From Deltaproteobacteria bacterium (GTDB lineage Bacteria; Desulfobacterota; Desulfomonilia; UBA1062), in NCBI GenBank assembly GCA_022703355.1, contig JAKLDU010000012.1, positions 1 to 34,014 on the forward strand: DNA of 34,014 nt, written 5' to 3'. Under the pieces are notes generated by a model. That model was given only the letters and a program-made list of their open reading frames with translations, had not been told where the DNA came from and did no database searches. Within the stretch, counting starts at the first letter, position 1; every line of letters begins with the position of its first letter. The position numbers were made by a program, and so were the translations under genes. This document shows, piece after piece, positions 10,878 through 34,009 of the stretch.

Positions 10878-13221
<2,344 letters not shown>

Positions 13222-23377: not shown

Positions 23378-24322
23378 ATGAACGTTGCCATAATCGGTGC
23401 CCGGAAAGACAGGAACGGCATCGGCGGTTTTATCGCCAGGTATTTTCACCAGAACGGGGCACAGGTGACATGCGTGCTGGGCACCTCCGAAGCCACGGCA
23501 GCCCTTGCGGCCGAGGCCCTCGCACCCTGCGGCATCAAGGCGAAACCCTACCGGGACTATACCGACATGGTGGAAGGCGAGGACCTCGACGCGGTGGCCG
23601 TTGCGTCTCCCGCCGAGACCCACTACGCCTTTCTGTCCGCATCCATGGAGCGCGGGCTTTCGGTGTTCTGCGAGAAGCCGTTCATCGACCCCGCCCGGGA
23701 CGACGTGCCCGGCGACCTCGAGACCCTGTTTCACCTGGCCCGCAAGAAAAGGGCCGCCGTGGCCATGAACTCGCAGTGGCCCTTCTGCCTGCCCTCCTAC
23801 GAGCGCCTCTGCGGCACCCTGGTCCCCGGGGAGATCCGTAAATTCTTTATCCGCCTGTCCCCCCTGAGCGCGGGCGCCGACATGATCCCGGACTCCGTGC
23901 CCCACGGGCTGAGCCTCCTCCACGCGGTCCTGGGCGCCGGGACGGTCCATGACCTGTCCTTCGAAAACGGCCCCGGATCCCTGGGCATCTCCTTCACCTA
24001 CGCATCCTCCTTCAGCGACTGCGAGGTGAGCATGCTCCTCGTGCAGGAAAAGCAGCAGCCCAGGACCTTCTCCTTCGGCTTCAACGGCCTCGTGGCGGAA
24101 CGGTGCATCGACATGGCCAGCTACGAGATCTCGCTGGCCTTCGGCGAAAAGCAGGCGCCCATCCCCGACCCCTTGAACCTCTGCGTCCGCGACTTCGTGG
24201 AGGCAGGAACTTCGGGCAGACACCCCGTCATCGGCGCGGACCACATCATCGCCACGTCGCTCAACCTCAAGCAGATATACGACGCATACACCCACCCGGA
24301 GAGGACCACATGGAAAAGCTGA
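23378..24322 (+). CDS. Gfo/Idh/MocA-family oxidoreductase
   Basis: A 314-residue NAD(P)-dependent dehydrogenase of the sugar oxidoreductase family. The N-terminal Rossmann fold starts MNVAIIGARKDRNGIGGFIA (a slightly expanded glycine loop), followed by AVAVASPAETHYAFL and the hallmark VFCEKPF with the EKP at 99-101. The C-terminal half is a beta-sheet domain (IRKFFIRLSPLSAG, ISFTYASSFSDCEVSM, RTFSFGFNGLVAERC). DSVPHGLSLLHAVL fills the position of the conserved His region. It begins the envelope cluster and overlaps the radical SAM gene by 13 bp. No ribosome site precedes ATG 23378. The substrate is probably a sugar, nucleotide sugar or cyclitol, but is not known. Confidence 0.85.
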   Translation: MNVAIIGARKDRNGIGGFIARYFHQNGAQVTCVLGTSEATAALAAEALAPCGIKAKPYRDYTDMVEGEDLDAVAVASPAETHYAFLSASMERGLSVFCEKPFIDPARDDVPGDLETLFHLARKKRAAVAMNSQWPFCLPSYERLCGTLVPGEIRKFFIRLSPLSAGADMIPDSVPHGLSLLHAVLGAGTVHDLSFENGPGSLGISFTYASSFSDCEVSMLLVQEKQQPRTFSFGFNGLVAERCIDMASYEISLAFGEKQAPIPDPLNLCVRDFVEAGTSGRHPVIGADHIIATSLNLKQIYDAYTHPERTTWKS

Positions 24323-25527
24323 CCCGGAAAGAGCACGATTTCAGCGCGAAGCTCAGGCAGAAATCCGTCATCGAGAACCTGCGGCAGTACATCGCCTGGC
24401 AGCGGGAAGCGCGCCGGTCGCCGGCACACCCCCCCCTCCCGGCTCTCGGGCCCGTGTCCATCAACCTCGACCTCACCACGGCATGCAACTTCAAATGCCC
24501 CCACTGCGTGGATTCCGGGATCATCAACACGGGCGAGGACATCAGCCTCGACGTCATCAGAGACAGCGTCGACACCCTCGCCGCGAAGGGCCTGCTCTCC
24601 GTGATCCTCATCGGCGGCGGAGAGCCCACGGTCCACCGGGACTTCGAGGAGATCGTGAGGGTCGTCAAGGCAAAGGGCCTCCAGGTCGGCATCGCCACCA
24701 ACGGCTCCCGGCTCGAACGCGTGGCGTCCGTGGCGGGGATCCTCACCGAGGGCGACTGGCTGCGCCTGTCCCTGGACGCGGCCCGGGAAGAAACCTTCGA
24801 GAAATCTCACAAACCCCCGGCAAAGGTCACCCTCGAAAAGATCCTGTCGGACGCGCAGGCCGTCAAGAAACTCAATTCGAACATATCGCTGGGATATTCC
24901 TTCGTCATCGTCTGGGACGGCATCCGCTACGGAAACAGGGAGCTCACGCCCAACCTGGACGACATCCCCGAGGCCGTGGTCAAGGCGCGGGAGTACGGCT
25001 TCGACTACGTGTCCTACAAGCCCTGCCTGCTGCGCCTGGAGGGCTCGGGCAAGGAATCCCTCTTCGACCCGCCCGACCCCGGGCGGGAGGAGAAGGTCAT
25101 CCAGGCCATAGGGAAAAGGCTCGACCAGGCGGAAAAGCTGTGCGCACCGCCCGTGAAGGTGCTCAGGAGCGTCAACCTCCAGGCCATGATGGAAGGGAAC
25201 CTCCACGAGCTCAAGAGGCAGCCCGTGGTGTGCCACTCCCAGTTCTTCCGGTCCGTCCTCGCCCCGGCGGGGATCTTCCACTGCCCCGCGCTCCGCGGCG
25301 TGAGCGCCGGCAGGATCGGGGACAAGGAAGGCTACCGGAGCGCAGCGCGCTTCCTCGAGACCCAGGCCTCCCTGGAAAGGTCGGTGCAGAGCTTCGACGC
25401 CTCGCGGGAATGCAGCGTCGTGGTATGCTTCTACCACCATGTCAACTGGTGGATCGAGAAGTTCATCCAGTCTTCCACGCCCGTGACCCTGATCCCGGAG
25501 GTGGAGGACAACAATTTCTTCCTGTAG
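24310..25527 (+). CDS. Radical SAM protein with C-terminal cysteine set (SPASM/Twitch-like)
   Basis: A 405-residue enzyme starting at ATG 24310, with GGAGAGGA just upstream. The [4Fe-4S]-SAM motif is C59-x3-C63-x2-C66 (TTACNFKCPHCVDSG), followed by ILIGGGEPTVHRDF (GGEPT) and GIATNGSRL, as in the SPASM-type and sugar/cofactor-modifying radical SAM proteins. The C-terminus holds C308, C325, C368 and C373 in segments VVCHSQFFRS, GIFHCPALRG and ECSVVVCFYHHV, consistent with one auxiliary iron-sulfur cluster; a full SPASM set is not clearly present. It overlaps the Gfo/Idh gene and is followed by GT9 after 18 bp, which suggests modification of a sugar or of a peptide/carrier used in envelope assembly. 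No precursor peptide gene was seen nearby. Confidence 0.9.
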   Translation: MEKLTRKEHDFSAKLRQKSVIENLRQYIAWQREARRSPAHPPLPALGPVSINLDLTTACNFKCPHCVDSGIINTGEDISLDVIRDSVDTLAAKGLLSVILIGGGEPTVHRDFEEIVRVVKAKGLQVGIATNGSRLERVASVAGILTEGDWLRLSLDAAREETFEKSHKPPAKVTLEKILSDAQAVKKLNSNISLGYSFVIVWDGIRYGNRELTPNLDDIPEAVVKAREYGFDYVSYKPCLLRLEGSGKESLFDPPDPGREEKVIQAIGKRLDQAEKLCAPPVKVLRSVNLQAMMEGNLHELKRQPVVCHSQFFRSVLAPAGIFHCPALRGVSAGRIGDKEGYRSAARFLETQASLERSVQSFDASRECSVVVCFYHHVNWWIEKFIQSSTPVTLIPEVEDNNFFL

Positions 25528-25545
25528 AAGGGGCCCGGGCATCCC

Positions 25546-26550
25546 ATGAGAATCTGCGTGGTACACTTGAACCAGATCGGGGATCTGGCCTTCTCCCTGC
25601 CGCTCCTGAAATCCCTGCGGGACGGGCACCCCGGGGCGGAGATCCACTCGGTGCTCAAGCCTGGCATCGGCAAGCTCCTGGAAGGCTCGCCCTTCGTGGA
25701 CAGAATCATCCCCAAGCCCGGGGGCGTTCGCGGCACCCTGGAGCTCGTGCGCGCCCTGCGGAGGAACTCGTACGACCTCCTCATCAGCCTTGCCCGCTCC
25801 GAGGAGGCCTTTCTCCTGGCAGCCCTGAGCGGGGCGGGAAAGAAGGCGGGGTTCGCCCGGTTCCCCTGGGACCTCTGCCTTGACGTGAAGGAGACCGTCG
25901 CCGGGCACAACAGCTCCTTCAACAACGCAAAGCTTCTGCGCCGCCTGGAATTCCCGGTGACGGCGGAGACCTATGTGGGGCTCCTGCCCGTGTCACCGGA
26001 CGAATGCCCGGAAGCGGTCCCTGCGCCTTATGCCGTGTTCTCCGCCGGGGCGTCTCCCCGGAGACTGGTCAAGGCCTGGGACGAGGAGAAGTTCGCCGGG
26101 CTCATCGTCGAGCTGAACGCCCGCTTCGGCCTCGTTCCCGTCCTGGTGGGGGCGGACGACACGCGGGAAAGCAACGACAGGATAAAGGACGCGGTCGGCC
26201 ACGACCCCCGCGGCAGGCACATCGCGGTCATCGACCTCACGGGCAGGCTGGGGCTGCGGGCGCTCTCCGCGCTCCTCATGCGCGCCGGCCTCTTCGTGGG
26301 CATCGATTCGGGGGTGATGCACCTGGCCTCCGCCTCGGACACCCCGGTGGTGGCGCTGTTCGGCCCCACCGACCCGTTCTACGTGGGCCCCCAGAACGCC
26401 AGGAGCGTCGTGGTGTCCCAGGACCTCGACTGCATGCCCTGCTATCTGAAAAGGACCTGCGAGGACGTCCGGTGCATGCGGGGTCTCTCCATGGAGAAAG
26501 TCCTGGCAGCGTGCGCTGGTCTTGTGGAAGGAAACGCCCGGGCAGACTGA
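25546..26550 (+). CDS. Glycosyltransferase family 9 (heptosyltransferase-like), first copy
   Basis: A 334-residue GT-B enzyme of the ADP-heptose:LPS heptosyltransferase family. The N-terminus MRICVVHLNQIGDLAFSLPL contains the usual GD-L loop. The C-terminal donor site has GLFVGIDSGVMHLASASD and VVALFGPTDPFYVGP. A cysteine-bearing tail (CMPCYLKRTCEDVRCM) matches the segment CxPC...C...C found in many GT9 proteins. ATG 25546 follows the radical SAM stop by 18 bp. The donor may be a heptose or another sugar. It is about 1.2 kb from a second GT9 gene on the opposite strand, so the two probably add successive core or saccharide residues. Confidence 0.9.
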   Translation: MRICVVHLNQIGDLAFSLPLLKSLRDGHPGAEIHSVLKPGIGKLLEGSPFVDRIIPKPGGVRGTLELVRALRRNSYDLLISLARSEEAFLLAALSGAGKKAGFARFPWDLCLDVKETVAGHNSSFNNAKLLRRLEFPVTAETYVGLLPVSPDECPEAVPAPYAVFSAGASPRRLVKAWDEEKFAGLIVELNARFGLVPVLVGADDTRESNDRIKDAVGHDPRGRHIAVIDLTGRLGLRALSALLMRAGLFVGIDSGVMHLASASDTPVVALFGPTDPFYVGPQNARSVVVSQDLDCMPCYLKRTCEDVRCMRGLSMEKVLAACAGLVEGNARAD

Positions 26551-26569
26551 AGGCCGCTCCGGCCTTCAG
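26547..26569 (+). other. Perfect 10-bp stem-loop containing the GT9 stop codon
   Basis: CTGAAGGCCG (26547-26556) and CGGCCTTCAG (26560-26569) form a perfect hairpin with a CTC loop. The TGA stop (26548-26550) of the first GT9 gene is part of the stem. There is no T-tract on either strand. It lies between convergent genes and could slow both polymerases or protect mRNA ends. Confidence 0.5.
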
Positions 26570-26740
26570 CCGGACACCTGAAGGAACTGCATCGATGCCT
26601 GCCCTGACCGGGCACATCCTGGAAAAGTGCCCGCCCACGCCCACGGATACGAGCGCTACCGGTGGGAACGGGGGGAAGACAACGGGGAAGGACCGGGCCG
26701 CTTCCCCTGCCGGGGGGGTGGGTTTCGCTTTCTGCTCCCT

Positions 26741-27706
26741 TTATTCCCCGAGGACGGCTTCGAGCTCGGCCAGCACGTCTTCGGGGCTGATGGCTTCCAT
26801 GCACAGCGGGTCCCGGCACACCTTCCTGCCACAGGGGGAGCAGGGCAGGCCCTTCGATATCACCCGCCCGAGGAAAGGTCCGGTCCTGCCCGGGTCTGCC
26901 GGCCCGAACAGTGCCACCACCTCTTTTTCCAGGGCGACCGCCAGGTGCATGGGCCCGGTGTCGCAGGTCACCACTGCCCGGGCGCCGGAAAGGACGCCGA
27001 CGAGCTCCATGATGGTGGTCCTGCCCACCAGGTCGATGGTCGACACCGCGGCGCCTGAAACAACCCCGTCCGCCGCTTCCCGGTCCTCGGGCCCCCCGGT
27101 GAGCACGCACGGCAGGCCGAAACGGCGATCGACCAGGCGGGACAGGGCCGAGAAGCCCTTGGCTCCCCACCGGTTCGCAGGCTTCGTGGCACCGATGTTC
27201 AGGACGATGTACGACGCAGGGAGCGCGGCCGGGGGCCGGTCGCCTTGGGGGATGTCCCATGCGACGCTGTCCGAAGAGGCGCCCAGGTAGGAGGCAAACT
27301 CCAGGTACTGCCGCACCATGTGCCCCGACGGGTCTGCAGGCGGTATGCGCTCGAAGGGCAAAAGCCAGGTCATTTCCTTGCACCGGCCCCTGTCGAAGCC
27401 GACGCGCCGGCCGGCCGCCGAGGCCCAGGTGAAGAGCCCCGACTTCGCCGTCCTCTGGAGGTCGAGCGCCAGGTCGAAGCGCTTTTCCCTCACCGCATGG
27501 AGCACCCCAGGGAGAGCCGCGGGCCATCTGCGCTTGTCGAAGAGGATGGGTACGTCCACGGACGCGTGCCGGGAGACGAGTGCGTGGCTCAGTGGCTCGA
27601 CCAGCCAGTGAATGCGGGCGTGGAAATGCCTTTTCAGGGAGATGGCGAGCGGCAGGGTGTTCACCACGTCCCCCAGCGCCCCGAGTTTGACGATGAGAAT
27701 GTCCAT
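26741..27706 (-). CDS. Glycosyltransferase family 9 (heptosyltransferase-like), second copy
   Basis: A 321-residue GT-B enzyme. MDILIVKLGALGDVVNTLPL is the classic GT9 opening. The donor site is VVTCDTGPMHLAVALEKEVV followed by ALFGPADPGRTGPF, and the tail CSPCGRKVCRDPLCMEAIS has the same Cys pattern as the first copy. I chose ATG 27706 because the fold begins there; the frame is open to 27859, but that part lacks GT9 features. It is convergent with the first GT9 gene, with ~190 bp between that holds only the stem-loop at 26547, and divergent from the GT2-kinase gene. Confidence 0.9.
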   Translation of the reverse strand: MDILIVKLGALGDVVNTLPLAISLKRHFHARIHWLVEPLSHALVSRHASVDVPILFDKRRWPAALPGVLHAVREKRFDLALDLQRTAKSGLFTWASAAGRRVGFDRGRCKEMTWLLPFERIPPADPSGHMVRQYLEFASYLGASSDSVAWDIPQGDRPPAALPASYIVLNIGATKPANRWGAKGFSALSRLVDRRFGLPCVLTGGPEDREAADGVVSGAAVSTIDLVGRTTIMELVGVLSGARAVVTCDTGPMHLAVALEKEVVALFGPADPGRTGPFLGRVISKGLPCSPCGRKVCRDPLCMEAISPEDVLAELEAVLGE

Positions 27707-27879
27707 TTCCCTACCGTTATTGCACATTCCCTTTTTCGACACAAGGAGGCCTCCATGCCCTTCATCCTCCCTGACACAAGAGTTTTGACATGACCTCCAT
27801 GCCCACCCGGGAGATTTACAGGAGAGAAAACCTGGGGTATGTTCATCGAAAACCGGCACGAAAGGATAAACGGGGATCG

Positions 27880-29544
27880 ATGCTGAGCATAATCATCGTC
27901 ACCATGGGTGAGGACCCCCTGCTCGGGGAGTGCCTGTCCTCCCTTCGGGAGCACGTCCGGCTCCCCAGGGAAGTCATCCTCGTGAACAATTCGCCCGACC
28001 CCCTCCCCCCTGGTAAGAAAGACGGAATCGTCCGCCTGGAAAACGGGCGAAACCTGGGGTATGCCCGGGCAGTGAACCGAGGCATCAAGGCGGCGACTGG
28101 CGACAAGATACTCCTGCTCAATCCGGACGCCCGCTTCACCTCGGACATCCTTTCCGGCCTGGCCTCCTTCCTGGACGCCCATGAGCATGCGGGCATCGCG
28201 GGCCCCCAGCTGGTCTTCCCGGACGGAAGCCTCCAGAACTCCATCGACGTCATCCCCAACCTCGCCACGGAGACCTTGAACAAATCCCTTCTGAAAAGGC
28301 TGTTCCCCAGGTCCTATCCCAGCAAGCGCTCCGGCATCGACCGGCCCGTGCGGGTCCCTTCGGTCATCGGCGCGTGCATGATGATCAAACGGGAGGTGGT
28401 CGACGCGGTGGGCGCCCTGGACGAGGGATTCTTTCTCTACCTCGAGGAGACGGACTTCTGCCGCAGGGCCGTGAACGCGGGCTTCGAGGTGTGGTTCCTG
28501 CCCCATCTCACCGTGGTCCATCACCAGGGGGCAACGGCCAGGCAGTTCGATTTCCGGAGGAGGGCCGAGTACCACCGGTCCATGGTGAGATTCTTCCGGA
28601 AAGACAAAGGCCCTCTTGCGGGAGTGCTGCTCTCTGCGCTTTCCCTCGTGAAGTTTGCCGTCGAGGTCCTGGGGAGAATCCCCGCAGCCGCGACACCCAA
28701 AGGAAGGCACCGCCTGAAGATGTCTTCCCTGCTCCTGCTGTGGAGCCTTGCGGGCATGCCCGGGGGCTGGGGCCTCGAAAGGGGGCTGCCGCCCTATGCG
28801 CGGGTCAGGAGGAACGGCTACACCTGGCTTCTCCCCCCGGGGGCGAGTTTTCCCGAGGAAGCCGCCCGCATCGATTCCTTCATGGAAACCTTTGGGAGCA
28901 CGGTGCTCAACCGGTCGCGCACGACCTTCGTCAAGTCCGGGCAGCTGGGGTCGAAGGTCGTCTTCCTGAAGCGCTACAACTACAAGGGCCTCCTCGACAC
29001 GGCCAAGAACATCTTCAGGAAGAGCAGGGCCAGAAAGGCCTTCGAGGGCGCCCTCCTGCTCGAGGAGAGCGGAATATCGACGCCGCACGTGCTGTTCGCC
29101 TGCGAAAAAAGGCGCTGGGGTATCCTCCTGTCTTCTTACATCGCCACGGAATGGGTGGAAGCCCTGGACCTGGTGAAGCACGCTGCTCGCCATGGGCATG
29201 ACGCGGAGCTCATCGCCGAAGTTGCGCGCTTCGTCCGCAGGCTCCACGAAATGGGCTTCATCCCCGTGGATCTCAAGGGGGAAAACCTCCTGAAATCGCC
29301 GAACGGCATCTGCCTCATCGACCTGGACCGGCTCAGACGGCCGGGCACCCCGGGCCTGTCGGCCGCCGCCCGGAACCTGAGCTACCTGAACGCGTCCTTT
29401 TGCCGGACCATCCCGCACACAGAAAGGCTCCTCTTCCTGGAAGAATACGTGAAGGGAAACCCCCGGATGGAGATAAGGAAAGAAGAGCTCTGCCGCCGGA
29501 TCAGCAGGCTCACGGAAAAACGGCTCAGAACAAGGCACTCCTGA
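27880..29544 (+). CDS. GT2 glycosyltransferase fused to LPS-kinase-like domain
   Basis: A 554-residue two-domain protein. Residues 1-~270 are a family 2 transferase of the rhamnosyltransferase type: LSIIIVTMG, EVILVNNSPD, NLGYARAVNRGI, LLLNPDAR with the metal Asp83, and DEGFFLYLEETDFCRRA (the ED catalytic region). Residues ~310-520 resemble the LPS core/Kdo kinase (WaaP/KdkA) group of protein-kinase-like folds: VVFLKRYNYKG with K364 as the ATP lysine, RLHEMGFIPVDLKGENLL with D464, K466 and N469, and CLIDLDRL with D481 in the DFG position. All key residues are present. The enzyme probably both adds a sugar and phosphorylates the glycolipid. ATG 27880 is chosen over an in-frame ATG at 27790 because it starts the GT fold. 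Confidence 0.88.
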   Translation: MLSIIIVTMGEDPLLGECLSSLREHVRLPREVILVNNSPDPLPPGKKDGIVRLENGRNLGYARAVNRGIKAATGDKILLLNPDARFTSDILSGLASFLDAHEHAGIAGPQLVFPDGSLQNSIDVIPNLATETLNKSLLKRLFPRSYPSKRSGIDRPVRVPSVIGACMMIKREVVDAVGALDEGFFLYLEETDFCRRAVNAGFEVWFLPHLTVVHHQGATARQFDFRRRAEYHRSMVRFFRKDKGPLAGVLLSALSLVKFAVEVLGRIPAAATPKGRHRLKMSSLLLLWSLAGMPGGWGLERGLPPYARVRRNGYTWLLPPGASFPEEAARIDSFMETFGSTVLNRSRTTFVKSGQLGSKVVFLKRYNYKGLLDTAKNIFRKSRARKAFEGALLLEESGISTPHVLFACEKRRWGILLSSYIATEWVEALDLVKHAARHGHDAELIAEVARFVRRLHEMGFIPVDLKGENLLKSPNGICLIDLDRLRRPGTPGLSAAARNLSYLNASFCRTIPHTERLLFLEEYVKGNPRMEIRKEELCRRISRLTEKRLRTRHS

Positions 29545-30084: not shown

Positions 30085-30139
30085 AGACCCCTGCCTGCGT
30101 CCATGAGAATCCCGGAGCAAGAGGCCGTGCTTGCAGATG

Positions 30140-30168
30140 TTGACCGGAATTATCTCCTGGCATATAGT
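30140..30168 (+). promoter_or_regulatory. Promoter of the MBL-fold gene, giving an ultra-short leader
   Basis: TTGACC (30140-30145, 5/6) and TATAGT (30163-30168, 5/6) are 17 bp apart. ATG 30179 is 10 nt after the -10 box, so the leader is about 3-5 nt. Confidence 0.7.
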
Positions 30169-30178
30169 TTCAGGCTAC

Positions 30179-31132
30179 ATGGACAAGGATATTTTCTCCC
30201 CTCTGGGGATCAGGGCCACGGGGATCACCGGAAAGATCTTCGTTGTCCAGGGGAACAACCGGGGCCGGTCCCCCTTTTCGAACTCCGTGTGCGTCCTCGA
30301 CAGAACCCGCCTGCTCATGGACACGGGGTGCGGCCACGACATCATAGCTTCCCTGAGGGACAGCGCGGGCATCCAGCGGGTGGTCCTCTCCCACTCCCAC
30401 CCCGACCACACTGCCGGCACCTGGCAGTTCCGCTCCTGCCCGGGCACCGAGGTCGCCGTGCCCCGGGAGGGCGCACAGAGCATCTCCTCGGCGGACAGGC
30501 TCGCGCTGAGATTCGTGGGCCCTGAACTTGCCGGCCTCTGGAAAGACACCTATCTGCAAGCCACGGGCTTCAGGGATTTTACCTTCGCTTCCCGGTTTGA
30601 AAACGGGACGGAGTTTTCCCTGGGCGAGAACCGGTTCATCGCCCTGCACGCGCCGGGGCATCTTACAGACCACTACTGCCTGTGGGAGCCGGACCGGAAG
30701 ATCCTCGTGGGGTTCGACATCGACATGAGCCCCTTCGGCCCCTGGTACGGCAACCCCGAGTCGGACATCGCGCTCTTCGGGAAATCGCTGGCGATGATAC
30801 GGGCCCTTCCGGTGGAGACCTACGTCTCCTCCCACGCCCGGCCCATGAAAGGCCCCCACTTCCAAAAGCGCCTCTCCCTCTACGAGGCGGTCTTCGAAAG
30901 GAGAGACCGCCTCGTCCTGGGCGCCCTGCCGCCTGACAGGCCCGTGCACCTCGACGAGGTCGTGGACAGGTCACCCATATACGCCGTCGACTACACCACC
31001 CACCCGGACAAGCTGCTCAGGTTCGGCGAATCGCAGATGGTCGCCAAGCACCTCCTCCGTTTGGCTTCACGGGGCCTCGTGGAGGCCGAAAGCCGGGAAG
31101 GCTCTTTTCCCATGGTCAGAAAGGCCCGGTGA
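30179..31132 (+). CDS. MBL-fold metallo-hydrolase (LACTB2-like layout)
   Basis: A 317-residue metallo-beta-lactamase-fold protein. The first metal site is SHSHPDH (H72, H74, D76, H77); H161 in LHAPGHLTDH, D180 in VGFDID and H219 in SSHARPMKG complete a binuclear site. The C-terminal ~80 residues (DEVVDRSPIYAVDY, QMVAKHLLRLASRGLVEA) look like the winged-helix end of LACTB2-type hydrolases. An in-frame ATG at 30131 precedes the promoter and is rejected. The enzyme is divergent from the NusG-II gene. The fold covers nucleases, lactonases and thioester hydrolases, so the substrate cannot be named. Confidence 0.88.
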   Translation: MDKDIFSPLGIRATGITGKIFVVQGNNRGRSPFSNSVCVLDRTRLLMDTGCGHDIIASLRDSAGIQRVVLSHSHPDHTAGTWQFRSCPGTEVAVPREGAQSISSADRLALRFVGPELAGLWKDTYLQATGFRDFTFASRFENGTEFSLGENRFIALHAPGHLTDHYCLWEPDRKILVGFDIDMSPFGPWYGNPESDIALFGKSLAMIRALPVETYVSSHARPMKGPHFQKRLSLYEAVFERRDRLVLGALPPDRPVHLDEVVDRSPIYAVDYTTHPDKLLRFGESQMVAKHLLRLASRGLVEAESREGSFPMVRKAR

Positions 31133-31371
31133 TCCACGGCACCACCGGGACCGGCCGGGCGCCCGGGCCCGATGCTCTCCCGGCCCAAGAAACCGCCCCG
31201 ATACCCCGCGGAGACGTGCGGGCTGAAGCCATTGCCCATCCCCGGCACATAAGAACCCCGGAATATTAAATCGATTTGGGGCATTGCCTGAAGTGTGATA
31301 AGTAACTCCTGTACACGGCGCCCGACGGGATGCCGGGACAGCTCACCCTCGAGGGGCGAAGGACCGCTGCG
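31133..31371 (+). other. 239-bp gene-free stretch with AT-rich pocket
   Basis: Between the MBL and GT26-STAS genes. An AT-rich pocket at 31261-31310, including the palindrome AAATCGATTT (31268-31277), stands out from the GC-rich surroundings and probably holds the promoter of the next gene, but I found no convincing -35/-10 pair. No coding frame is supported. Confidence 0.35.
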
Positions 31372-32871
31372 ATGAAGAGAACCGCTGCCGCAATACTGGG
31401 CGTCCCCGTGGACGCCTTCACCAGGGAAGAAACCATCGCGTACATCTTCCACCTCGTCCAGTGCCACCGGACCGATCGGACCCCCAGGCTCGTCTGTACG
31501 CTGAACAAAGACTCCCTCGCCGACACCCTGGCCTGGCGCCCCGGGCAGACGCGCCACCCCGAACTGCTCTCCATTCTCCGGGGCGCCGACCTGGTGACGA
31601 CCGACGACACGCGCCTCGTGTGGGCGAGCAGGCACCTGGGGCCAGCGCTCAAGGAGCCCGTCACGGGCGCTGACCTCGTGAACGGGCTCGCAGGAGAAGC
31701 GGCGCGCAGCGGCCTGTCCCTGTACCTGCTGGGCGGGGCTGGAGGGGCCCTCCTGAAAGGGGCTTCCCTGCTCCGGGAAAGATTCCCCGGCCTGCACATC
31801 GCCGGGTGCGACTCGCCCGCCGTCCACGTGGAAGGGGCACCTCTGGCAGACAGCCCCGAGGCCGACGGGGAAATACTGGAGAAGATCAAGAGTGCTTCGC
31901 CCGACCTGATCCTGGCGTCCTTCGGCAGCCCGGGACAGGAGCTCTTCTTCGGGCGGAACCGTCACCGCCTCATGGTCCCGGTGACCGTCTGCCTCGGCGG
32001 CACGTTCGACTTCGCGGCGGAAACGGTGACGAACGCGCCCGGGCGGATGCGCCCCGGATTCCTCCCCTGGCTCCTGCGCTTCGCCCGGCACCCCGGGCGC
32101 CTGGTGAATCGCCGCCTTCTCGACCTGGTCAAGTGCGCAGCGCAGATCTGGCCTTCGATTCTCGTCTACGAGTACGCAAAGAGGGTGGCACCGCACCCCT
32201 ACCTGAAAAGGTGCAAGTCGGGGGTGTCTTACAAGTACATGACCAGGGGCAGAACTCAGGTCCTGCACCTGACCCTGCCCGGGAGCGTGGACGCCGGGGC
32301 GGTGCCCCGGCTGGCCTCGCTCATCCCGAAACGCCCCACCGCCCATCTTCTGCTGGACGTGAACGACGTGGCCTTCATCGACTCGGCCGGCCTCGGCCTG
32401 CTCCTGAGCGTCATGAACCTCTGGGCGGCGGGCAGGTATGAACTGCTCGTCACCGGCGCCGGCCCGTATGCGAAAAAGGTCATGGCCAGCAACCGCCTGC
32501 ACGATCTCTTCTCCGGGCGGCTTTTCGACTCGTTGGAAGATGCCCTTGCCTGGCTGGACAGGCACGCCGGGGAGTCGGCCTCCTGCATCGAGGTCGCACA
32601 GGGGGCGGATTCGAGCACTATTGCCTTCTCCGGCAGCCTGAAACCCATCGGCATCTCCCCCGCAGAGATCAGGGGCATCGCCTCCCGGGTGAAGGGGGCC
32701 CGGTGCGTCCTGGATCTTTCCGCCCTCCACTCGATCAGCACCCAGGGCATCATCCTCCTGCTCAAGCTCAGGGACGCCGTCGAGAAGGGGGGAAAGACGT
32801 GCACCTCGCAGGGGGCGCACGGGGAAGTGGCCCAGATGCTCAGGGTGACCCGAACCGAAAGCCTCGTCTGA
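31372..32871 (+). CDS. WecG/TagA/CpsF (GT26) glycosyltransferase fused to two STAS-like domains
   Basis: A 499-residue three-part protein. Residues 1-~255 are GT26: VPVDAFTREETIAYI, TLNKDSL, the Asp79 region (VTTDDTRLV), YLLGGAGGALLKGA, LASFGSPGQELFF and CLGGTFDFAAETV, then LPWLLRFARHPGRLVNR. The usual PKQE is PGQE here. Residues ~290-395 are a STAS domain with LLLDVNDVAFIDSAGLGLLL; Ser338 is the residue normally phosphorylated in anti-sigma antagonists. Residues ~405-497 look like a second STAS domain (ARCVLDLSALHSISTQGIIL) in which the D-S-x-G motif is S-T-Q-G (Thr457). The start at ATG 31372 fits the GT26 N-terminus. The transferase probably makes a surface saccharide under STAS-mediated control. 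No kinase (RsbW-like) gene is in the window. Confidence 0.88.
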   Translation: MKRTAAAILGVPVDAFTREETIAYIFHLVQCHRTDRTPRLVCTLNKDSLADTLAWRPGQTRHPELLSILRGADLVTTDDTRLVWASRHLGPALKEPVTGADLVNGLAGEAARSGLSLYLLGGAGGALLKGASLLRERFPGLHIAGCDSPAVHVEGAPLADSPEADGEILEKIKSASPDLILASFGSPGQELFFGRNRHRLMVPVTVCLGGTFDFAAETVTNAPGRMRPGFLPWLLRFARHPGRLVNRRLLDLVKCAAQIWPSILVYEYAKRVAPHPYLKRCKSGVSYKYMTRGRTQVLHLTLPGSVDAGAVPRLASLIPKRPTAHLLLDVNDVAFIDSAGLGLLLSVMNLWAAGRYELLVTGAGPYAKKVMASNRLHDLFSGRLFDSLEDALAWLDRHAGESASCIEVAQGADSSTIAFSGSLKPIGISPAEIRGIASRVKGARCVLDLSALHSISTQGIILLLKLRDAVEKGGKTCTSQGAHGEVAQMLRVTRTESLV

Positions 32872-32917: not shown

Positions 32918-34009
32918 TCAGAACATGAACCTTCTCCAGGCGACGTTCAGCACGAGGCCGATGCACAGGAGATTCATGAACATGAACGAGCCGCCGTAGG
33001 AGATGAAGGGCAGCGGCACGCCCACCACCGGGAAGATGCCCAGGGTCATGGAGATGTTGATAAAGATGTGCAGGGTGAAGTACCCGGCGATCCCGAAGCA
33101 GATCATGGAGCCGAAACGGTCCTTTGCCCGGTAGCCCACCTGGATGATCTTGGTGACGAGGATGATGTACAGCAGGATGAGGATGGCGGTGCCGGCGAAC
33201 CCCCACTCCTCGGCCACCACGGAAAAGATGAAGTCCGTGTGGTGCTCGGGCAGGAAACTCAGCTGGGTCTGGGTGCCCTGGAGGTAGCCCTTGCCCCAGA
33301 GACCGCCGGAACCCACGGCAATCTTGGACTGCGTGGCGTGGTAGCCGGTGCCCAGCGGGTCGCGGCTCGGGTCGAGGAAGGTCAAAATCCGGTTGCGCTG
33401 GTAGTCCTTGAGGGTGAGCCAGGCGAACGGCAGGGCGGACAGGAAGAGCGCTCCCAGGGAGATGACCGTGGAGCGTCTGACACCCAGGAGCAGGAGCATG
33501 ATCACCGCGATCATGGCCACGATCCCCGCGGTCCCGAGGTCGGGCTCCAGGAGGATGAGACCCACCGGCAGGAGGATGAAGATCGCGGGCAGGATGAGGT
33601 CCTTCATGCCGTAGCTTTCGATCTGGATCTTTTTTTCGCTCCAGTAAGCCATCCAGATGATGATGATGATCTTGGCGAACTCCGAGGGCTGGATGCTCAC
33701 GAATCCCAGCGATATCCACCTCCGGGCCCCGGAGATCTCCCTTCCGACGAAGAGCACCAAAGCGACCCCTAGGACCATCAGTACATACATCGGCCAGGCC
33801 AGCCGCATGTGGGCCCGGTAGTCCACGAGAAAGGCGACGATCATCACCACGAAGGCCGCGGAGATCCACAGGAGCTGCTTGAAGAAGATGGAGACCTCGG
33901 TGAGCCGCACGGCGCTGTAAAGGCAGAGCAGACCCACGGCGATGAGAGCCAGCGTCGTGGAGAGCAGGCCCCAGTCGATGTTATTGGCTATCTTGTCGTA
34001 CCTGCTCAT
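32918..34009 (-). CDS. rodA: Rod shape-determining protein RodA (SEDS peptidoglycan polymerase)
   Basis: A 363-residue polytopic membrane protein of the SEDS family, which polymerises glycan strands during lateral wall growth with a class B PBP and MreBCD. Family motifs include SGARRWISLGFVSIQPSEF, LLEPDLGTAGI, the extracellular loop with KIAVGSGGLWGKGY, LPEHHTDFIFSVVAEEWGF and the C-terminal GVPLPFISYGGSFMF. GxWGKGY and FLPExHTDFIF point to RodA rather than FtsW. ATG 34009 lies 5 bases from the window edge, so upstream genes (often mrdA, mreD) and the ribosome site cannot be seen. It is convergent with the GT26-STAS gene. Confidence 0.95.
   Translation of the reverse strand: MSRYDKIANNIDWGLLSTTLALIAVGLLCLYSAVRLTEVSIFFKQLLWISAAFVVMIVAFLVDYRAHMRLAWPMYVLMVLGVALVLFVGREISGARRWISLGFVSIQPSEFAKIIIIIWMAYWSEKKIQIESYGMKDLILPAIFILLPVGLILLEPDLGTAGIVAMIAVIMLLLLGVRRSTVISLGALFLSALPFAWLTLKDYQRNRILTFLDPSRDPLGTGYHATQSKIAVGSGGLWGKGYLQGTQTQLSFLPEHHTDFIFSVVAEEWGFAGTAILILLYIILVTKIIQVGYRAKDRFGSMICFGIAGYFTLHIFINISMTLGIFPVVGVPLPFISYGGSFMFMNLLCIGLVLNVAWRRFMF

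Follow-up and report, generated by a model that had tools for sequence, protein, structure and literature searches.

A GT26 glycosyltransferase with two built-in STAS domains: an apparent orphan of an exopolysaccharide cluster and its putative tie to a partner switch

Does a sugar transferase that carries its own STAS domains answer directly to a serine-kinase partner switch, and is any such partner left in the genome studied here? The question is raised by a gene at 31372-32871 (forward strand) of a 34,014-nucleotide stretch of a Deltaproteobacteria assembly (the window; its genome is G000). A preliminary description of this DNA had proposed that a GT26 enzyme is joined to two STAS-like modules, one perhaps switchable and one structural, and that surface saccharide synthesis is placed thereby under direct control of a serine kinase.

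Domain architecture and key residues of the fusion protein

The open reading frame encodes 499 residues plus a stop, with zero internal stops on translation, and is assigned as a GT26-STAS-STAS fusion by Pfam and homologue search. A start at the in-frame ATG of position 31330 would lengthen the protein by 14 residues; in relatives the start is the codon at 31372. With Pfam, Glyco_tran_WecG was found at residues 72-247 (E 1.8e-39), along with two STAS stretches, the better at 290-391 (E 8.4e-15; STAS_2, E 4.3e-14). Moreover, the NCBIfam models wecG_tagA_cpsF (TIGR00696) and ant_ant_sig both exceed their cut-offs, and an MlaB-like match at 446-488 falls under the cut-off of that family. The AlphaFold model of the whole protein is of moderate quality (pLDDT 67, pTM 0.44), and its Foldseek search returned TagA (7mpk, E 1.4e-10) plus several STAS proteins. 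Modelled by itself, the tail (residues 284-499; mean pLDDT 83) forms two beta-alpha STAS units that matched TM1442, SpoIIAA, RsbV, and MlaB. By these four methods and by its conservation as a fusion, the protein is a GT26 member carrying genuine STAS domains, and the STAS fold described after residue 290 is borne out. As the same GT-STAS-STAS order is conserved in other genomes, at full length in 8 others of the family and more distantly elsewhere, a frameshift or chimeric artefact is rejected. So too is a reading of the tail as one transporter-type STAS domain, the best Foldseek matches being anti-sigma antagonists and MlaB; SLC26 STAS domains are also among the matches, and Pfam found no membrane transport domain in the protein.

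The GT26 (WecG-TagA) domain and its C-terminal appendage span residues 1-262 (31372-32157, forward), as judged from Pfam, Foldseek alignment to TagA, and residue mapping. With the TagA residues given in PMC6493773 as the reference, equivalents of T37, N39, D65, Q167, E168, R214, R221, and R224 are all retained, including the catalytic Asp65 (D78 here), Thr37 (T43), and Arg221 of the appendage (R243). The predicted activity is sugar transfer to an undecaprenyl-diphosphate (UndPP)-linked acceptor. Two positions deviate. At D78-D79 (31603-31608, forward), the catalytic aspartate is followed by Asp79 in place of Gly66 of TagA, a glycine present in nearly all relatives (DG to DD). At 31657-31659 (forward), alignment and residue mapping place Pro96 where TagA has the conserved Arg83 (ERVTG to EPVTG), a residue that the TagA model places beside the lipid diphosphate (PMC6493773).

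STAS1 occupies residues 283-398 (32218-32565, forward; Pfam, tail model, and Foldseek) and keeps D-S-A-G, in which Ser338 (codon 32383-32385, forward) is the candidate phosphosite. STAS2 covers residues 405-499 (32584-32868, forward; NCBIfam, Pfam, and Foldseek) and is closest to MlaB by sequence, and by itself it scores 22.2 bits in Pfam, just short of the 22.6 required. Its Thr457 (codon 32740-32742, forward) aligns with the STAS2 serine of relatives, which is a threonine in one of them (G023). In the AlphaFold models, Ser338 and Thr457 each open a helix after a strand, which is the usual position of a STAS phosphosite, and in the alignment both fall on the equivalent sites of the relatives' proteins. 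The D337-S338 pair is invariant in the alignment of 11/11 family members, and Ser or Thr stands at the STAS2 site in all nine that possess this domain (it is missing in G002 and G007). The STAS2 motif, which reads D/N-S/T-x-G in relatives, is S-T457-Q-G in the window and so without the Asp. By sequence and model position, the D-S-x-G-type Ser/Thr of phospho-switched anti-sigma-antagonist STAS domains is therefore present, and STAS1 of the window would still be of the switchable type, with Ser338 as its putative phosphorylation site.

The locus in relatives and in the window

The fusion is conserved in 11/24 family genomes. Among 60 related genomes searched, full-length forms besides that of the window occur in five of the same genus and three of the same family (39-49% identity); G002 and G007 have GT-STAS in a shorter form. 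Equivalents named in GTDB include the Deltaproteobacteria MAGs SM3-B3m, LM3-B1m, Phox-21, SV3-B1.1, and others, as well as Syntrophaceae bacterium UBA6087. In six complete loci, the fusion is the last gene of an exosortase-type exopolysaccharide (EPS) cluster, at whose start a REC-SpoIIE/PP2C-HATPase protein (HsbR-like; the switch) is followed by a free STAS protein (HsbA-like). For instance, the G006 locus runs from a metallo-beta-lactamase-fold (MBL) gene through REC-SpoIIE-HATPase_c_2 (557 aa), STAS (114 aa), a Bac_transf initiating sugar transferase, and a hexapeptide protein to an AAA_31 protein of chain-length type, a polymerase-like protein, a flippase, several GT2 proteins, and a TPR protein, and ends with Exosortase_EpsH, DUF3485 (EpsI-like), GT26-STAS-STAS, and a convergent rodA. 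The locus of G003 is the same, as are those of G018, G020, and G023 with parts on separate contigs, and in G004 a single contig carries both switch and fusion, ~22 kb apart. These six genomes are the only ones with an EPS polymerase-like gene.

Other relatives have lost parts of this arrangement. Between switch and fusion, G001 keeps a truncated Bac_transf, exosortase, and EpsI (L034:9216-10433), and G005 keeps sugar-transferase and EpsI remnants (L035:9725-10001), which are scars of EPS deletion. In G006 coordinates, the left breakpoints of the two deletions are 13 bp apart and the right ones differ, and G005 is placed outside G004/G001/G006 (84/94 support), so that one or two deletion events are possible. 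The window, G002, and G007 have lost both the switch and the EPS genes at this locus, where the fusion stands alone between MBL and rodA. The reverse case is G013, where switch and STAS genes are kept beside rodA without the fusion, so that in this genome, at least, the switch has some other target.

In the window, neighbourhood comparison identifies the upstream edge as the MBL gene (30131-31132, forward) and the downstream edge as a convergent rodA-like gene (32918-34009, reverse), after which relatives have pbp2-mreD-mreC-mreB (the last three named from sequence, with no profile search). The position of the intergenic gap at 31133-31371 holds the REC-PP2C-HATPase and STAS genes in G001/G005, and in G003/G006 it is where the row of switch, STAS, and EPS genes begins; no remnants of switch or EPS genes were found in the gap. 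The exosortase, EpsI, initiating transferase, flippase, and polymerase genes present in relatives are absent around the window fusion. A tree of the flanking genes makes the window sister to G003, with its complete locus, at a support of only 85/86.

No REC-PP2C-HATPase or RsbW-type kinase gene linked to the fusion was found in the window, and no switch orthologue in the G000 assembly, which at 80% completeness could miss a distant gene. The HATPase, SpoIIE, and STAS genes found elsewhere in this genome are all unlinked and non-orthologous. Because the defining partner was searched for in this genome and not found, the window protein is not classed as a partner-switch member. Contig C186 carries two adjoining small STAS genes (116 and 97 aa; L132:6326-6975, forward) at its end, with no kinase near them on the stretch seen. 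Within the window, an LPS-type group at 23378-27859 comprises a GFO/IDH oxidoreductase, a radical SAM protein, and two GT9 heptosyltransferase-like genes. At 27790-29544 (forward) lies the gene of a 584-aa protein with GT2 (33-206) and Kdo/WaaP-kinase-like (409-545) domains, whose homologues share the neighbourhood in relatives.

A switch orthologue is present in nine of the 24 family genomes, namely all eight with a full-length, motif-intact fusion, plus G013. It is absent from all three with a degraded or shortened fusion (window, G002, and G007), and 12 genomes have neither. The association gives a Fisher p of 0.002 over the 24 family genomes, a value inflated by linked loss: members of a single cluster disappear jointly, which makes part of the co-occurrence trivial. 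Nevertheless, the switch is rare in the phylum (4/198 genomes at E 1e-60), and in G171, of another family, genes for the switch, BacA/UppP, and GT26-STAS-STAS are consecutive, which is independent support for the link. The switch shares its domain layout with HsbR, a protein that phosphorylates Ser56 of HsbA (PMC6482189). As for the proposed serine-kinase control, direct control of a UndPP-linked glycosyltransferase is thus plausible from gene content for the family, where surveying for a co-occurring kinase turned up the REC-PP2C-HATPase protein in the same cluster, and it is not supported for the window genome.

Fusions beyond the family

Among 395 phylum genomes, GT26 proteins that carry one or two STAS domains and are more distantly related occur in four other families (G242/G284/G376; G171; G127; G230). 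The G171 genes lie at L127:8675-10249 and 11280-12920 (both reverse), GT26-STAS-STAS with UppP and the REC-PP2C-HATPase gene adjoining. Here, the GT active site looks dead (D65 to V, T37 to V, and Q167 to A), yet the DSxG motifs of both STAS domains and the switch are intact, so catalysis by the GT is not always the output, and the case hints that this part can become a scaffold. In G242/G284, STAS1 lacks its serine, and no switch homologue was found. Since STAS1, and not STAS2, is degenerate in other families, the STAS roles are not fixed. The division into one switchable and one structural domain fits in part, through the invariant D-S of STAS1, the degenerate STAS2 flank in the window, and the two losses of STAS2. 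In G376, G127, and G230, the GT26 protein carries only one STAS domain, and it lacks DSxG.

Several observations stand beside these. In G376, genes for a 1155-aa FHA-GAF-PAS-SpoIIE-HATPase protein and a STAS protein (L143:9942-13768, reverse) adjoin PelF-/PelG-like genes; they may form the partner switch of a pel-type operon and are a second tie of this switch type to EPS. In G111, a REC-PP2C-HATPase homologue is accompanied by a pair of STAS genes and the gene of a 742-aa sensor-like protein (L147:9621-14264, forward), and the stretch read holds no GT26 fusion. In G210, a GT26 domain is apparently fused, as judged by eye on the translated tail, to a C-terminal bacterial sugar transferase (phosphoglycosyltransferase; L093:763-2754, reverse). 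A plasmid search gave 282 records with GT26 matches, none covering 80% of the query and the best stopping near residue 250-290. In the literature searched, we found no paper discussing a WecG-STAS fusion.

Rates, a proposed mechanism, and its alternatives

Loss of EPS goes along with faster evolution of the GT domain. Terminal branches of this domain, relative to those of the flanking genes, are 2.1-11.2 in five EPS-less lineages (2.19 in the window) vs 0.5-1.6 in the five whose locus is complete (exact p 0.008, from few lineages and an imposed tree), whereas the corresponding ratios for STAS1 do not differ (p 0.31). Close EPS-less relatives have dN/dS values of 0.11-0.36, and among close relatives dN/dS is <0.4 in all parts; this measure covers close relatives only, the window copy being too diverged. 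With its 499-codon frame intact despite about 50% divergence from the nearest relative, the window fusion is best explained as retaining some constraint, weakened in the GT part.

Overall, the best explanation, to which we give a probability of roughly 0.6, is a GT26 enzyme with a built-in two-STAS tail that was ancestrally switch-controlled within an EPS cluster and in this genome is an orphan whose GT part has begun to decay. Ancestrally, the enzyme would transfer a sugar onto a UndPP-linked acceptor after the initiating phosphoglycosyltransferase of the exosortase-type cluster. The REC-PP2C-HATPase protein of the same cluster would phosphorylate and dephosphorylate the STAS serine(s), the free STAS protein acting as a co-substrate or competitor, and the phosphorylation state would set GT26 activity or its docking and placement at the membrane. 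We infer this kinase-substrate relation, the phosphorylation of Ser338, what it does to the enzyme, and which sugar is made. Only tentatively do we propose the further step that the switch acts on the polysaccharide-building enzyme directly through its own STAS domains, with no sigma factor or second messenger between. In the window lineage, loss of the EPS and switch genes from the locus would have left the fusion behind with its GT active site beginning to decay, and with cluster and kinase gone from the locus it looks like a leftover.

Alternatively, the tail could be a constitutive docking or oligomerisation module without phospho-control, as MlaB is for MlaF, holding the GT at the membrane or at an EPS partner. 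STAS2 is matched to MlaB by fold as well as by sequence, the non-switchable single STAS is kept in three genomes of other families, and STAS1 persists in G002 and G007 without the switch. Moreover, the TagA appendage needs membrane-driven ordering (PMC6493773), and the STAS tail comes directly after its equivalent here. We consider this rather unlikely given the conserved Ser/Thr sites of both STAS domains, the kinase/phosphatase encoded in the cluster, and its independent occurrence beside the G171 fusion gene.

We rate as equally unlikely that the window gene is a functionless, decaying relic of the lost cluster. The absence of the remaining cluster, the R83-to-P and DG-to-DD changes, the degenerate STAS2 motif, the loss of STAS2 and, by residue mapping, of key GT residues in G002 and G007, and the faster GT evolution all point that way. 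Against this stand the intact frame, the retained D65, T37, N39, Q167, R214, and R221 equivalents, an unaccelerated STAS1, the low dN/dS of close EPS-less relatives, and survival of the gene in three lineages whose locus has neither switch nor EPS genes.

Re-use of the fusion in the window lineage, for another UndPP-linked glycan and answering to an unlinked kinase/phosphatase pair, seems improbable. Candidates for such a pair exist on contig C27 (a REC-HATPase_c_2 protein beside a PAS-SpoIIE phosphatase), with STAS proteins on C186 and C192, the catalytic Asp is retained, and the LPS-type genes (two GT9 and the GT2-Kdo-kinase-like protein) are nearby; yet the contig genes are unlinked to the fusion, no initiating transferase or polymerase was recognised in the window, and an EPS polymerase homologue is absent from G000.

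Comparison with known systems

The ancestral, switch-controlled enzyme that we favour has several partial parallels. HsbR-HsbA(-HsbD/FlgM) of Pseudomonas aeruginosa is a partner switch linked to biofilm (PMC6482189), and it and CrsR-CrsA of Shewanella share with the relatives' loci a REC-PP2C-HATPase switch protein beside a STAS protein and the tie to biofilm. However, the HsbA/CrsA STAS acts on separate partners (FlgM, HsbD, and the RpoS axis), whereas here an extra STAS pair lies inside a biosynthetic enzyme. In Vibrio fischeri, SypE-SypA exerts post-transcriptional control of polysaccharide-dependent biofilm, likewise with a kinase/phosphatase response regulator and a STAS protein within a polysaccharide locus (PMC4517449, PMC8256260). 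SypA is nonetheless a single-domain STAS protein, in contrast to STAS domains covalently joined to a glycosyltransferase. The likeness to HsbR/HsbA or SypE/SypA holds at most in the relatives.

Among single proteins, TagA/TarA of Thermoanaerobacter italicus (GT26) has the same fold and nearly all of the active-site residues, but ends after the membrane appendage, while the fusion has about 235 more tail residues and the window copy lacks Arg83. MlaB of E. coli, nearest to STAS2 by sequence, is a separate subunit that binds the ABC ATPase MlaF. In all4160 of Anabaena, cited in the review PMC8256260, STAS and glycosyltransferase also share one chain, with the STAS domain at the N-terminus instead.

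A STAS domain built into its effector enzyme may be a new form of partner switching in the relatives, with the window copy as its apparent orphan. The genome series from complete cluster through deletion scars to orphan fusion shows what stays and what decays after EPS loss. The targets through which SypA-type STAS proteins control polysaccharide output are still unknown (PMC4517449), and a STAS-glycosyltransferase fusion in an EPS cluster with a kinase/phosphatase names a concrete target class that is testable in vitro. If true, the arrangement would be a hard-wired counterpart of SypE-SypA.
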